NCBI GenBank assembly: GCA_022226935.1
Contig: CP092081.1
Span: forward strand, 130,902 to 194,901
DNA: 64,000 nucleotides
Source: Nitrospira sp.
GTDB lineage: Bacteria; Nitrospirota; Nitrospiria; Nitrospirales; Nitrospiraceae
Direction of reading: 5' to 3'
Shown in pieces: positions 6,940-41,697 of this stretch; the first letter of the stretch is position 1; every line of letters starts with the position of its first letter. The notes under the pieces are model-generated. The model saw only the letters and a program-made list of their open reading frames with translations. It was not told where the DNA came from and did not search any database. Both the position numbers and the translations under genes were made by a program.

Positions 6940-8493
6940 ATGGCCAGCATTGCGCGGGCACTGATCAGTGTTTCTGACAAGACCGGAGTGGTCGAGATGG
7001 CCAGGGGTTTGGCTGCGCTCGGCGCAGAAATATTGTCCACGGGCGGAACCGCCAAAGCCTTGCGTGATGCGGGCGTGGCGGTCACGGATGTGGCTGCCTA
7101 TACGGGGTCTCCGGAGATTCTCGACGGCCGCGTGAAAACGCTGCACCCGAAAATCCACGGCGGCTTGCTGGGGCGTCGGGGCGTTCCCGACCATGTCAAG
7201 CAGATGCAACAGCACGGCATCGGCAACATCGATGTGGTCGTGGTGAATCTGTATCCCTTCGAAGCGACGATCGCCAAGCCCAATTGTCCGTTCGAGGAGG
7301 CGATCGAGAACATCGACATCGGCGGCCCCTCCATGTTGCGCTCCGCCGCGAAGAACCATGAAGATGTGCTCGTCTTGGTCGACCCCTCTGATTACACCCG
7401 CGTGCTGGAGGCCGTAAAGGCCGGTTCCGTGACGCCGGCGTTACGCCGCGAACTGGCCATGAAGGTGTTTCAGCACACGGCGCAGTATGACAGTCTGATC
7501 GCCGGCTATCTCGAAAAGCAGGTGCAGGGGAGCGAGGTCAAGTTTCCCGCCATTCTGTCGCTGCAGTTCGAGCGCGTGGAGACGCTGCGTTACGGCGAAA
7601 ATCCGCACCAGCAGGGCGCGTTTTATCGTGAACTGAACGCCAAGGAGCCGGCAGTGTCGCGCGGGAAAATCCTGCATGGCAAAGCCATGTCCTACAATAA
7701 TTTCCTCGATTCCAATTCGGCGCTCGAACTCGTGAAGGAATTCGACGAGACCGCGGTGGCGATCATCAAGCACAACAATCCCTGCGGCTGCGCCCTCGGC
7801 GCCACACCGGTGGAAGCCTATGTGAAGGCGCGCGCGACGGATCCCGTGTCGGCGTTCGGCGGGGTAATCGCGTTCAACCGCCCGGTGGATCTGGCGGCGG
7901 CGAAGGAGATCACCTCCACATTTGTCGAAGTCGTGATCGCGCCGGGTTTTGCGGAGGACGCGCTGGCGGAGCTCAAGCGCAAGAAAGACATTCGCCTGCT
8001 GGATGTCGGCCCGCTCAGCAAGGCGACAGCCGAAGGGTATGACCTCAAGAAGTTGGTCGGCGGATTGATCGTTCAGGATCGGGATCTCGGTGCAATCAAA
8101 GACATCAAGACGCTCGCTGTGCCGACCTCACGCAAACCGACCGAGCAGGAATATGCAGCCTGCGCATTTGCCTGGGTGGTCTGCAAACATGTGAAGTCGA
8201 ACGCCATCATCTACGGGCGGCCGGGTGAAATCGTCGGCATCGGCGCGGGGCAGATGAGCCGGGTGGATTCGGTGAAATTGGCGGCAATGAAAGCCCAGTC
8301 GTCCGTGAAGGGCTGTGTCATGGCGTCCGACGCATTCTTCCCATTCCGGGATGGTATAGACGCGGCGGCAGAAGCCGGTATCACCTGTGTGATCCAGCCC
8401 GGTGGATCCATCCGTGACGCCGAAGTGACCAAGGCGGTGGATGAGCATGGGATGGCGATGATTCTGACGGGCATGCGCCACTTCCGCCATTGA
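6940..8493 (+). CDS. purH: Bifunctional AICAR formyltransferase/IMP cyclohydrolase
   Basis: PurH catalyses the last two steps of de novo IMP synthesis: formylation of AICAR with 10-formyl-THF, then cyclisation of FAICAR. The N-terminal MGS-like cyclohydrolase domain starts at ARALISVSDKTGVVE and includes GRVKTLHPKIHGGLL. The C-terminal AICARFT domain carries YGENPHQQGAFY, IIKHNNPCGCA and the terminal VIQPGGSIRD block. The length, 517 residues, is normal. An in-frame TTG at 6925 exists, but AAGGAG at 6928-6933 positions the ATG at 6940. It is followed by repeat copy A and purD, giving a two-gene purine unit. Confidence 0.97.
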   Translation: MASIARALISVSDKTGVVEMARGLAALGAEILSTGGTAKALRDAGVAVTDVAAYTGSPEILDGRVKTLHPKIHGGLLGRRGVPDHVKQMQQHGIGNIDVVVVNLYPFEATIAKPNCPFEEAIENIDIGGPSMLRSAAKNHEDVLVLVDPSDYTRVLEAVKAGSVTPALRRELAMKVFQHTAQYDSLIAGYLEKQVQGSEVKFPAILSLQFERVETLRYGENPHQQGAFYRELNAKEPAVSRGKILHGKAMSYNNFLDSNSALELVKEFDETAVAIIKHNNPCGCALGATPVEAYVKARATDPVSAFGGVIAFNRPVDLAAAKEITSTFVEVVIAPGFAEDALAELKRKKDIRLLDVGPLSKATAEGYDLKKLVGGLIVQDRDLGAIKDIKTLAVPTSRKPTEQEYAACAFAWVVCKHVKSNAIIYGRPGEIVGIGAGQMSRVDSVKLAAMKAQSSVKGCVMASDAFFPFRDGIDAAAEAGITCVIQPGGSIRDAEVTKAVDEHGMAMILTGMRHFRH

Positions 8494-8502
8494 GAGACGT
8501 TG

Positions 8503-8607
8503 AAACGGGCCTCCAACTTCGTTCTCGGCTCGAAAAAATCCTCAACGTAGCCAGCAGGCTACGCCTCCGGTTTTTTCTCGCCTGCGGCCTCGTTGGACGA
8601 CCCGTTT
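8503..8607 (-). repeat. Palindromic intergenic repeat, copy A
   Basis: The outer arms are imperfectly complementary: AAACGGGC-CTCCAAC at 8503-8517 against GTTGGA-CGACCCGTTT at 8592-8607. The centre is a perfect 7-bp hairpin, CGTAGCC/GGCTACG (8546-8552 and 8557-8563) with loop AGCA. Read on the minus strand it contains GGCCGCAGGCGAG, ACCGGAGGCGTAGCC, TTGAGGATT and CCGAGAACG, which recur in the copies at 22947 and 40354. On the plus strand the hairpin is followed by GCCTCCGG and six T, so it could also terminate or attenuate transcription between purH and purD. Confidence 0.85.
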
Positions 8608-8652
8608 GAACGCCCTCACAGAATGCTAATCACTGAAAGCAAAGGTTGAACT

Positions 8653-22916: not shown

Positions 22917-22946
22917 AGTTTCCAATGAGTTTCGTGTAAGTCAGGG

Positions 22947-23062
22947 GATGCTCAAACTGATCTTTCAGCAAGGCCGCAGACGAGACAGAACCGCAGGCGT
23001 AGCGGAGCTACGTCGAGGATTGTGTCGAGTCGAGAACGCTGTTGAAAGGCAGTTTCAGCATC
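22947..23062 (+). repeat. Palindromic intergenic repeat, copy B
   Basis: The outer arms are GATGCTCAAACTG and CAGTTTCAGCATC (12 of 13 positions complementary), followed inward by CTTTCAGC against GCTGTTGAAAG. The central hairpin is CGTAGC-GGA-GCTACG (22998-23012). Blocks GGCCGCAGACGAG, ACCGCAGGCGTAGC, CGAGGATTG and TCGAGAACG match copies A and C. It occupies nearly all of the gap between pyrG and kdsA. Confidence 0.85.
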
Positions 23063-23067
23063 ACCGT

Positions 23068-24669
23068 TCAGTGGCCGCATTTGCGCCGTAGCGCCGCCCC
23101 CACAAATCCGCTAAACAAGGGATGCGGATGATGCGGCCGCGACTTGTATTCCGGATGGAACTGCGTGGCCAGGAACCAGGGATGGTTCTGCAGTTCGACG
23201 ATCTCGACCAGGCGGCCATCCGGAGACAGGCCGCTCAGAATCAGTCCTTTCGCCGTCAATTGCTCACGATAGGCATTGTTGAATTCATACCGGTGGCGAT
23301 GCCGCTCCTGCACCTCGTTCACGCCATACGTTTTTTGCGCCAACGTGCCTTCACCAAGTTTACAGGCGTAGGCTCCGAGCCGCATCGTGCCGCCCTTATC
23401 GTTGACGGATTGCTGGTCTGACATGAGATGAATGACCGGATGCGGCGACTGCGCATCGAACTCCGCGCTGTTCGCGCCGGTGAGGCCGGCGACGTTGCGC
23501 GCAAATTCGATCGTGGCGCATTGCATGCCGAGACAGAGGCCGAGGAAGGGAATCCGGTGTTCCCGCGCATACTGAATGGTGACAATCTTGCCTTCGATTC
23601 CCCGTGAGCCGAACCCGCCGGGAATGAGAATGCCATCGGCCTCTCGCAGGATTCGCTCCGTCCCCTGCCGTTCCACGTCTTCGGATTCGATCCACGTCAC
23701 GTTCACACGGGTTTCGTGGTCGATTCCGCCGTGGACCAGGGCCTCTGCCAGGCTCTTGTAACATTCCTTCAGCCCGGCATATTTTCCGACCAGCGCGATC
23801 GACACCTCGTGCTTAGGATGCTTGATCTTCTGCACCATCGCATCCCACTCACGCAGATTGGGCGGGCCGGTTTCCAGCTTCAGCTGGCGCACGATCAGTT
23901 CATCCAGCCCTTCCTTGCGGAACACGATCGGCACTTCATAGATGGTTTCCACATCCTTGGCCGTGATGACCGCATCCTTCTCCACGTTGCAAAACATGGC
24001 GATCTTGGCCTTGAGTTCAGGCGGAAGATAGCGATCCGTGCGGCACAGCAGGATGTTCGGCTGAATACCGATTTCGCGCAGCTTGTTGACGGAATGCTGG
24101 GTGGGTTTCGTTTTCAACTCACCGGCGGCGCCGATATACGGGACGAGCGTCAGGTGTACATAGAGCACGTTGTCGCGCCCCACGTCATAGGGAATTTGCC
24201 GAATGGCTTCCAAAAAAGGCAGGCTTTCGATGTCGCCGACCGTGCCGCCAATCTCCACGATCGTGACATCCATGCCTTGGGACGTCCGCATGATACATTG
24301 CTTGATCTCGTCGGTCACATGCGGCACCACCTGCACTGTCCCGCCCAAATAATCACCGCGCCGCTCTTTGGTGATGACCGAGTGATAAATGCGGCCGGTC
24401 GTATAATTGTTCTCACGCGTCAGCGTGAGCGAGGTATAGCGCTCGTAATGTCCCAGGTCGAGATCGGTCTCGGCCCCGTCCTCTGTCACGTAGACCTCGC
24501 CGTGCTGGTAGGGATTCATGGTACCGGGGTCGACGTTGATGTACGGGTCGAGCTTCAAAAAGGTGATCTTCAACCCGCGGCTCTCCAGGAGATTGCCGAT
24601 AGACGCAGAGGCCAGTCCCTTTCCGAGCGACGAGACGACACCCCCGGTCACAAAGATCAGCTTGCTCAT
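23068..24669 (-). CDS. pyrG: CTP synthase
   Basis: PyrG aminates UTP to CTP with glutamine. The 533 residues start [25 protein letters not shown] (P-loop). The synthetase domain includes [21 protein letters not shown] and [21 protein letters not shown]. The C-terminal class I glutaminase has [12 protein letters not shown], the nucleophile Cys in [11 protein letters not shown] and His/Glu in FHPEYKSRP. An upstream in-frame start at 24780 would read into the end of kdsB; 24669 fits the family. Placement next to kdsB is functional, since KdsB consumes CTP. Confidence 0.98.
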
Positions 24670-39365: not shown

Positions 39366-40520
39366 CTACGGCATCCACAGATACATGAATTGCGGCGATC
39401 CCCCTCGCACGACCGAGAGCAGATCGACGTTCGCCAGACTGGCCAGGCTGGGCGCCGGCGCGACGAGCCGCGAATAGACATTGTTCTGGTATTCGCCGGG
39501 ACGGCGATAGGTCACGACCTTCGCTTCCATCAAGCCGGATTTTTTCTTGGCCAGGTCAATCGCATCGTCGAGATATCCGATATCATCGACCAGCCCAGAA
39601 GCCTTGGCCTGTTCGCCGGAATAGATCCGGCCGTCGGCCAGTTTCTTGATGGTCTCCCCGTTCATGCCCGGGCGGCCTTCCTGCACCACCTGCAGAAATC
39701 GCTGGTAAAAACCGTCGATCACGCTTTGGAAAATCGCCCGTTCTTCCGGCAGCATCGCTCGAAACGGCGAGCCCATGTCTTTGCGCGGACCGGACGTCAC
39801 CGCATTCGTTTCGACGCCGACCTTTTCGAGCAATCCTCTCGCATTCACGGTCAGCATGATGACGCCGATGCTGCCGGTGACCGATGAGGGATGCGCCATC
39901 ACCGTATCGGCCGCGGCGGCGATATAGTATCCGCCTGACGCGCCCACATCCATGATGGAGGCGACGATCGGAATTTTCCGGCTGGTCTTAAAGTGTTTGA
40001 GTTCGTGATAAATGATGTCGGACGCGGTGACGGTTCCTCCAGGGCTGTTGATCCGCAGGACGATCGCCTTGACCCGTTCGTCTTTGGCGGCCCGCTCCAG
40101 TTCTTCTTTCACCGTGGCGAGCATGCCCGGCGAAGAATAAAACCCGTCCTTGTTTTCGGAACTGATCACGCCAGACACATCCATCAACAGCACCTTGTCT
40201 TTGCCGGTCCCGCTGACCTTGTGTTCTTCAAGGGCGCTGGGGCCTGGCGGCAGGTTGATCGTGACGCAGGCCGCTTGCATCATGGCCAGGGCCAGCACAA
40301 GAAGAGCGGTCGAGAGATGCCAGACGCCGGGAGCCTGACCGGCGTTGCGGTTCGTGGCGAGGCGAAGAAGGTGCGGCCAGGTGCAAGGCCGCAAGCCCGA
40401 CAAAACCGGAGATGTATTCGCAGAAGTACATTGAGGATTGTGGAGGGCTGAGAACGACGCAGATGGCCGTAGTTCATTCGCCACAGCAGAGCGGTCAATG
40501 CCGGACAGGCTCCTAGGCAT
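39366..40520 (-). CDS. sppA: Signal peptide peptidase SppA-type S49 protease; N-terminus uncertain
   Basis: S49 peptidases degrade cleaved signal peptides in the inner membrane. The domain begins [18 protein letters not shown] and includes [23 protein letters not shown], the nucleophile Ser in [16 protein letters not shown] and [10 protein letters not shown]. The general-base Lys is in [14 protein letters not shown]. The short, single-domain form of about 300 residues is present. The start is uncertain. The open frame reaches 40520, overlapping the carA stop, but codons about 13-56 pass through repeat copy C. Closer starts (a TTG near residue 40, a GTG before [10 protein letters not shown]) give odd signal peptides. 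[10 protein letters not shown] resembles a lipobox. Confidence 0.85.
40354..40484 (+). repeat. Palindromic repeat, copy C (overlaps the sppA 5' region)
   Basis: The outer arms are GTGGCGA...GGCCA (40354-40380) and GGCCGT...TCGCCAC (40465-40484). The centre is TGTATTC-GCA-GAAgTACA. Blocks GGCCGCAAGC, ACCGGAGATGTATTC, TTGAGGATTG and CTGAGAACG align with copies A and B. The hairpin bases differ but stay paired. Confidence 0.75.
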
Positions 40521-41697
40521 GGTGTGTCTCCATCAAGGCAATAAATTGTTCAAACAGATAGGCGGAATCATGAGGGCCGGGAGAGGCCTCGGGATGGTAT
40601 TGCACCGAAAACACCGGGCGATCCAAACATCGCATGCCTTCCACCGATCCGTCGTTCAAGCTGGTGTGGGTCAATTGCACGCGACCGAAGGGCGTGTCCA
40701 CGATCGGCAACTCCTGCCCTGCAGCCGGCGTTTTGCCCGGAAAGCGCACGGCAAAGTTGTGATTTTGAGAGGTGATTTCCACTTTTCTCGTGCGCAGGTC
40801 GATGACCGGATGATTGGCGCCATGATGGCCGAACTTCAGTTTGTACGTAGAGAATCCCAGCGCGAGGCCGAGCAATTGATGCCCCAGGCAGATGCCGAAA
40901 ATCGGCACGCGGCCGATGAGCTCACGGAGCGCTGTCATGGCGTAGGGCACGCCCTCAGGGTCGCCGGGACCGTTCGAGAGGAACAATCCTTGCGGCTTCA
41001 GGGCCAGCACATCCTTCGCCGGAGTCGAGGCCGGCACCACGGTGACCTCGCAGCCCACATCTACCAGCCGCCGCAGAATGTTCTGTTTGACGCCGAAATC
41101 ATAGGCCACCACTCGCCAGGTTTTTCGCGGCGCCTGGGCCGCGCCCGGTTCCGGCATCGTGATCTTGGGCGCCCACTCGCCCGTGCCTTCCGTCCAGGGA
41201 TAACGGTGCTCGCAGGTGACGGTGGCCGCCAGATCACGCCCGATGATGCTCGGCGCCTGCCGCGCCTTTTCGGCCACGCGGCGCGGGTCGAGATCGACGT
41301 GAGAAATCACGCCCTGTTGCGCACCCTTTTCTCGCAGATGCCTGGTCAGGGCTCTGGTGTCGATGCCCTCAATTCCTACGATCTGTGCCGCCTGCAGATA
41401 CTCTTGTAGCGTCGCCTTGCCGCGCCAGTTGCTCGCCAGCCGGCTGGATTCCTTGACGACGAACCCTTCGGCCCAAATTTTTGTCGACTCGACATCCTCC
41501 GGCGTGACGCCGTAATTGCCGATCTGCGGAGACGTCATGGTGACGATCTGGCCGCAATACGAGGGATCGGTCAGCACTTCCTGATAGCCGGTCATGGCCG
41601 TATTGAACACGACTTCGCCGCCGGTCTCCCCTTCCGCGCCCAACGCGCGCCCTTCGAACCAGGTTCCGTCGGCCAGCGCAAGAATCGCTTTCTTCAC
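40513..41697 (-). CDS. carA: Carbamoyl-phosphate synthase small (glutaminase) subunit
   Basis: CarA hydrolyses glutamine and channels ammonia to CarB. The 394 residues begin [19 protein letters not shown] and [20 protein letters not shown]. The class I glutaminase domain has [14 protein letters not shown], the nucleophile Cys in [16 protein letters not shown], and the catalytic His/Glu in [17 protein letters not shown] chose GTG 41697, five bases after AAGGAG (41708-41703) and just inside the upstream stop; a GTG at 41703 overlaps the ribosome site. It is separated from carB by two protease genes. Confidence 0.97.

Follow-up and report, generated by a model that had tools for sequence, protein, structure and literature searches.

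The window, i.e. the whole stretch of 64,000 nucleotides of a Nitrospira genome analysed here, contains three copies of a fold-back DNA element of about 120 nt. They belong to a large family of structured palindromes, one end of which often lies directly behind the stop codon of a gene. On balance, we are inclined to regard this family as non-autonomous mobile palindromic elements, REP- or ERIC-like in kind.

Three copies in the window and their common fold

Copy 1 (8494..8615, minus strand; 133 bits in the covariance model described below; -64.6 kcal/mol, z = -6.4 against shuffled sequences) lies in the purH-purD gap and starts directly 3' of the TGA stop codon (8491-8493) of purH (6940..8493, plus strand; Pfam AICARFT_IMPCHas, 1.7e-119). 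Copy 2 (22946..23064, plus strand; 111.3 bits; fold z = -6.7 against shuffles) is found 3 nt past the stop codon of pyrG, the CTP synthase gene (23068..24669, minus strand; Pfam CTP_synth_N, 2.8e-127), and before a DAHP synthase gene. Copy 3 (plus strand), whose model core covers 40361-40483 (87.6 bits; z = -6.1 against shuffles), seemed offset from the stop codon of carA (40513..41697, minus strand; Pfam CPSase_sm_chain, 1.5e-54). Its outer arms, GAGCCTG.CCGGC/GCCGG.CAGGCTC, lengthen the palindrome to 40331..40512, and thus it is flush with that stop codon (complement of 40513-40515). The preliminary description of this DNA had located all three copies properly and had given an order of sequence blocks that is indeed common to them; the third copy, real as it is, had been drawn too short, at 40354-40484. 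It was also right that the central stems change in sequence and still pair, except that the stem of copy 3 is ATGTA/TACAT and not GTATTC/GAAgTAC. The single orientation reported for the three copies holds as well, the strand written there (called R1 below) being antisense to every flanking gene.

The element is an imperfect palindrome of ~120-190 nt, whose helices stack into a rod. Its core, CCGGAGGCGTAC-loop-GTACGTYGAGGA, is fixed, and its arms are nearly free in sequence but keep their pairing. On the R1 strand, the outer arm bears a conserved 1x1 mismatch (GCT-C-AAAA/TTTT-C-AGC in Nitrospira) and is followed by a purine-rich internal loop (GGCCGCAG / CGAGAACG). The middle stem leads from there to the inner loop (CCGGAGG / TTGAGGAT), beyond which the apical stem (GCGTAC/GTACGT) contains two G-U pairs that hardly ever change. 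In an alignment of ten copies, 92% of the cells pair, compared to 81% after shuffling, and changes on both sides, i.e. compensatory ones, are seen in 22 of the 43 pairs; none of 500 shuffles reached the observed pairing or covariation. The earlier assertion that structure rather than sequence is conserved is thus strongly supported. Among 253 copies, R1 gave the more stable fold of the two strands in 223 with RNA parameters (mean -62.1 vs -55.6 kcal/mol for the complement) and in 219 with DNA parameters. In the helices of R1, G-U outnumbers A-C; the cross-phylum set, for instance, holds 118 G-U against 16 A-C oppositions, 51 of the former in the two conserved pairs, a count that leans toward the model, as this alignment was fitted to it.

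Size and distribution of the family

The 13-base core pattern TACRTYGAGGATT occurs 10 times in the genome, compared to 0 occurrences of a reversed control. These ten copies align and fold as one rod, and the search with a covariance model gave 73 copies at E<1 in the 4.23-Mb single-contig Nitrospira genome, which rules out chance as the source of the repeat. None of the 73 overlaps any predicted gene by more than 15 nt (gene context was taken from ~320 kb of loci with a simple gene caller). The preliminary description had named two outcomes that would speak against it, namely no further copies in the genome or pairing broken in most copies; neither was found, since the model search yielded many copies and the arms vary yet pair. 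Relatives within the genus typically bear from 30 to at least 87 copies. G004, a member of the same genus with a genome of 4.16 Mb, has only 2. One of these is a sense copy located 6 nt before the start codon of a moeB-like gene, as in the window genome.

A covariance-model search across Nitrospirota, as had been proposed together with the repeat, gave matches at E<=1e-5 in 136 of 296 sampled genomes. In an exact-pattern scan of GTDB species genomes, the matches listed include Nitrospira defluvii and N. moscoviensis, records titled Rokubacteria, Methylomirabilota, Riflebacteria, Spirochaetia, Phycisphaerae (Planctomycetota), Eisenbacteria, Deltaproteobacteria and others, as well as several Clostridia, e.g. 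Eubacterium plexicaudatum ASF492. Most of the listed matches also score with the covariance model; the taxonomic labels need care, because most of the non-Nitrospirota records are MAGs. When the core was held fixed and the left arm was shuffled 100 times, the real arms beat all 100 shuffles in 27 of 27 non-Nitrospirota copies (median z -7.7).

The family is uncatalogued. Neither ten of our own copies nor nine loci from other phyla matched any of the 4227 models of Rfam 15 as an element at E<=1, and within the window no element match was obtained at the gathering score. Plasmid and phage collections, queried by distant blastn with one copy each, gave no match. The core pattern is present in five IMG/VR contigs, of which only L333 was scored as an element by the model; L334 resembles the element by eye. 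We found no description of such a family in the open-access literature, subscription literature being outside the search. The RepRanger resource covers N. moscoviensis, with a default palindrome limit of 32 nt (PMC12306157).

Two further observations concern neighbouring sequences. A match to the Rfam model 5_ureB_sRNA (93.8 bits), located beside the element copy of a urease gene (L008 1010-1302), may be only coding similarity. Low-scoring hits in family f3 (L200, L202, L206 and L212), which have the common start TTATTGCACTATCG after CTCTGAT or CTCTTGAT, perhaps represent a separate palindrome family.

Stop-codon junctions and the history of sites

Abutment was scored when an ORF that runs toward an element end and has 100 codons or more had its stop codon within -4..+6 nt of that end, and the sample comprised 253 distinct copies, mostly but not all from Nitrospirota. 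The R1 3' end abuts a stop codon in 124 of them, including 67 at exactly 1 nt, and the identical test at the R1 5' end was positive for 10. The abutting codons are TAG (62), TAA (39) and TGA (23), with TAG over-represented and TGA under-represented in comparison to the genome's genes (p = 0.0014, own genome). The same rule was observed elsewhere in the order, where 20 of 26 listed copies from other families obey it, and also in other phyla, and TGA+C junctions are present in distant families. It is because one element end usually abuts a stop codon that the orientation of the copies is constant.

Junctions away from stop codons are enriched in YTAR (25% vs about 1% background). A preference for this motif would also account for the fixed orientation, since an element in the opposite orientation would disrupt the gene. 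YTAR sites at stop codons and in intergenic DNA stand in a ratio of about 70:356, and YTAR-flanked copies in a ratio of 65:25. The excess at stop codons is thus accounted for in part only by this preference; a pure YTAR target combined with selection against gene disruption predicts too few copies at stop codons and was rejected. The abutting genes are quite ordinary ones, among them purH, pyrG, carA, ureC and genes for ABC transporter ATPases or radical SAM proteins, and they have no pathway in common. Two simple ideas could be discarded. The element does not supply the stop codon of purH, as the C-terminus RHFRH* is identical in filled and empty sites, and it is no intrinsic terminator, as the copies inspected have no T-run behind the hairpin. 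GC skew, determined locus by locus with a view to a replication-strand bias, was too mixed for placing the origin and terminus.

Comparison of ~50-60 kb of syntenic DNA with relatives revealed three lineage-specific insertions. The carA copy is present only in the window genome, with the orthologous site empty in five relatives; another copy, before the DAHP synthase gene, is specific to G014, and a third one, at a different stop codon, to G015. The empty orthologous sites in relatives point to insertion, and carA provides the clean case, because the two other sites have rearranged flanks. No target duplication was seen at the filled and empty sites compared. The closest paralogues are only 90% identical, which speaks against a recent burst.

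Other sites are old. The purH site is filled in most relatives, including almost every member of the genus, and in two genomes of another family it holds the only copy found. The pyrG site is filled in nearly all of the genus members examined (13 of them, G004 being an exception), with several unrelated element types. Replacement at one and the same stop codon is seen as well: at these two sites, the element types of relatives are 70-75% identical and hence no closer than random paralogues (median 0.70), despite 93-99% identity of the proteins. At one locus (L148), a new element stands at the purH stop codon and is followed by the distal half of an older type. The fact that several sites are kept across families, purH even as the sole copy, suggests selection for retention. 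Tandem arrays, with a period of 131 bp, occupy the space between a MoCF gene and a CBS-domain gene; they begin flush at the stop codon of the CBS gene and comprise 2-3 copies depending on the genome, and orthologous arrays were noted at L041-L044, L048, L246 and L070 6420-6762. Model scores displayed no consistent gradient by which the copies within arrays could be ordered by age.

A minority of copies are sense and lie just 5' of start codons, most often at a distance of exactly 6 nt. The genes having a copy at this distance are moeB-like, ureC and a MoCF gene, and several of the start-codon copies are orthologous to one another. Sense copies whose end is exactly 6 nt from an ATG were recorded at L006 1435-1556, L072 9121-9243, L070 5674-5795, L193 and L269. 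In several copies of this kind, no Shine-Dalgarno sequence is visible between the element and the start codon.

Possible origin and role of the element

If the family is mobile, which is the simplest account, a host or element enzyme would probably recognise the rod with its fixed internal loops, best formed by the R1 strand, as folded single-stranded DNA. Insertion would proceed with no detectable target duplication, preferably at (Y)TAG/TAA, placing the R1 3' end at the stop codon of a gene that runs toward the element. Copies would be kept mainly behind stop codons, where the gene is left intact and an element could persist very long, with further copies replacing or joining it at the same junction; at some sites it might have been recruited as an mRNA-end or leader structure. 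The number of copies, the lineage-specific insertions, the changed element types at purH and pyrG, the tandem arrays, the strand bias of the fold and the stop-codon and YTAR junctions speak for this reading. Against it count the long retention of several sites, the share of the stop-codon excess that YTAR leaves over, and the lack of a recent burst and of a target duplication. As for the mobilising enzyme, Y1 (PF01797), Y2 (PF04986) and integron integrase are all absent from the window genome, which is a further point against it.

Like REP, BIME and REPIN sequences, the element is a dispersed extragenic palindrome (73 copies here, tens to hundreds in those families) that forms tandem arrays, makes no target duplication and is often near stop codons; in E. 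coli, 446 of 4,072 predicted REPs lie within 15 nt of a stop (PMC12306157). These traits, together with the short target-like motif, would fit mobilisation by a RAYT, on which REPINs depend (PMC3116915). However, the Nitrospira element is a rod of about 122-190 nt with a fixed core that is the same in many phyla, it is strongly oriented and usually within 3 nt of the stop codon, and its junction consists of YTAR or of a stop codon followed by C rather than of GTAG/GGAG at the hairpin foot. Moreover, PF01797 has 0 matches in the window genome (G000) and in G002, G003, G005, G010, G012 and G024, the last six of which are relatives holding 30-84 copies. Present-day RAYT/IS200 mobilisation is ruled out here, there being no Y1 gene in the genome; a lost ancestral RAYT is possible, and we consider the RAYT explanation as a whole highly improbable. 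An attC-like recombination site, with gene and element as a cassette and a tyrosine recombinase acting on the folded bottom strand, would on the other hand explain the position right after the stop codon, the fixed orientation, the folded bottom strand and the conservation of structure over sequence. In Nitrospira inopinata, IntegronFinder gave two attC clusters without an integrase (PMC9024848), which might count in favour of this explanation and may be mis-called copies of the palindromic element. Yet the element is dispersed among syntenic housekeeping genes (purH, pyrG, carA), it has a conserved apical core unlike attC, and GTTRRRY/RYYYAAC boxes are not evident by eye at the ends of the aligned copies. 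Integron integrase (TIGR02249) passes the cut-off in just 4 of 41 relatives and does not do so in G000; an integron origin was rejected on this ground, and an attC-like site seems very unlikely. IS200/IS605 and IS91/Helitron transposition through single-stranded DNA involves a terminal hairpin beside a short target motif, no target duplication and tandem copies. The element shares a hairpin beside YTAR and the two latter features, but neither a Y1 nor a Y2 enzyme is encoded in the window genome and no autonomous partner was found; Y2 being present in only 3 of 41 relatives, mobilisation of the IS91/Helitron type was rejected. ERIC is an imperfect palindrome of about 127 bp, intergenic and of conserved structure, known from enterobacteria. 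Our element resembles it in being intergenic, of similar length and of conserved structure, and ERIC likewise has no known mobiliser, but sequence and core appear to differ. ERIC is confined to a few gamma-proteobacteria and is not known to abut stop codons.

The main rival is a host role. The rod would then be an RNA element, regulatory or structural, that selection keeps after stop codons or before start codons, where it could protect mRNA ends, slow terminating ribosomes, couple translation or block antisense transcription into the gene. Stop-codon abutment that is precise across phyla, the strong fold with covariation, persistence at purH and pyrG, and copies exactly 6 nt before the start codons of moeB, ureC and the MoCF gene are all in line with this; in E. 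coli, a REP hairpin no more than 15 nt from a stop codon reportedly lowers translation (cited in PMC12306157). The preliminary description had in fact deduced a role at the RNA level, such as attenuation or mRNA processing, from the common orientation. This is not supported: as the abutting genes run toward the R1 3' end, the strand with the conserved fold is mostly antisense to that gene, which argues against a role in its mRNA. Sites are also gained and lost between close relatives, G004 of the same genus and equal genome size has almost no copies, and the abutting genes lack a common pathway. We therefore find the RNA explanation rather unlikely for the family as a whole, although an antisense-RNA or DNA role may be compatible with the antisense fold and an RNA role may apply especially to the few sense copies about 6 nt before start codons. 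Pairing might also be maintained by mutation rather than selection, through template-switch correction of quasi-palindromes, which could yield compensatory changes between copies. This we disfavour as barely plausible, because the internal loops keep their mismatches and are conserved from one phylum to the next, and because the excess of G-U over A-C indicates a strand-specific constraint.

Returning to mobile palindromic elements, the stop-codon excess beyond YTAR is the most interesting part of the finding. All three codons, a near-exact junction and a fixed strand might mean that the insertion machinery reads translation stops and not only a DNA motif, for instance by a step involving RNA where mRNAs have been cleaved in the A site of the ribosome, or by a nuclease or recombinase acting where ribosomes terminate, but we hold this idea to be quite doubtful. 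We know of no repeat family reported to obey a stop-codon rule so strictly. In practical terms, the element may be confused with attC sites by integron finders, the near-loss in G004 is a natural case useful for finding the mobiliser, and the numerous filled sites that have an empty natural counterpart lend themselves to tests of how a post-stop hairpin affects expression. The element would be a structured one of very wide distribution that follows a positional rule, the base of the palindrome directly after the stop codon and on one strand only, and it offers a concrete way of studying how palindromes can spread through intergenic DNA when no transposase is recognisable.
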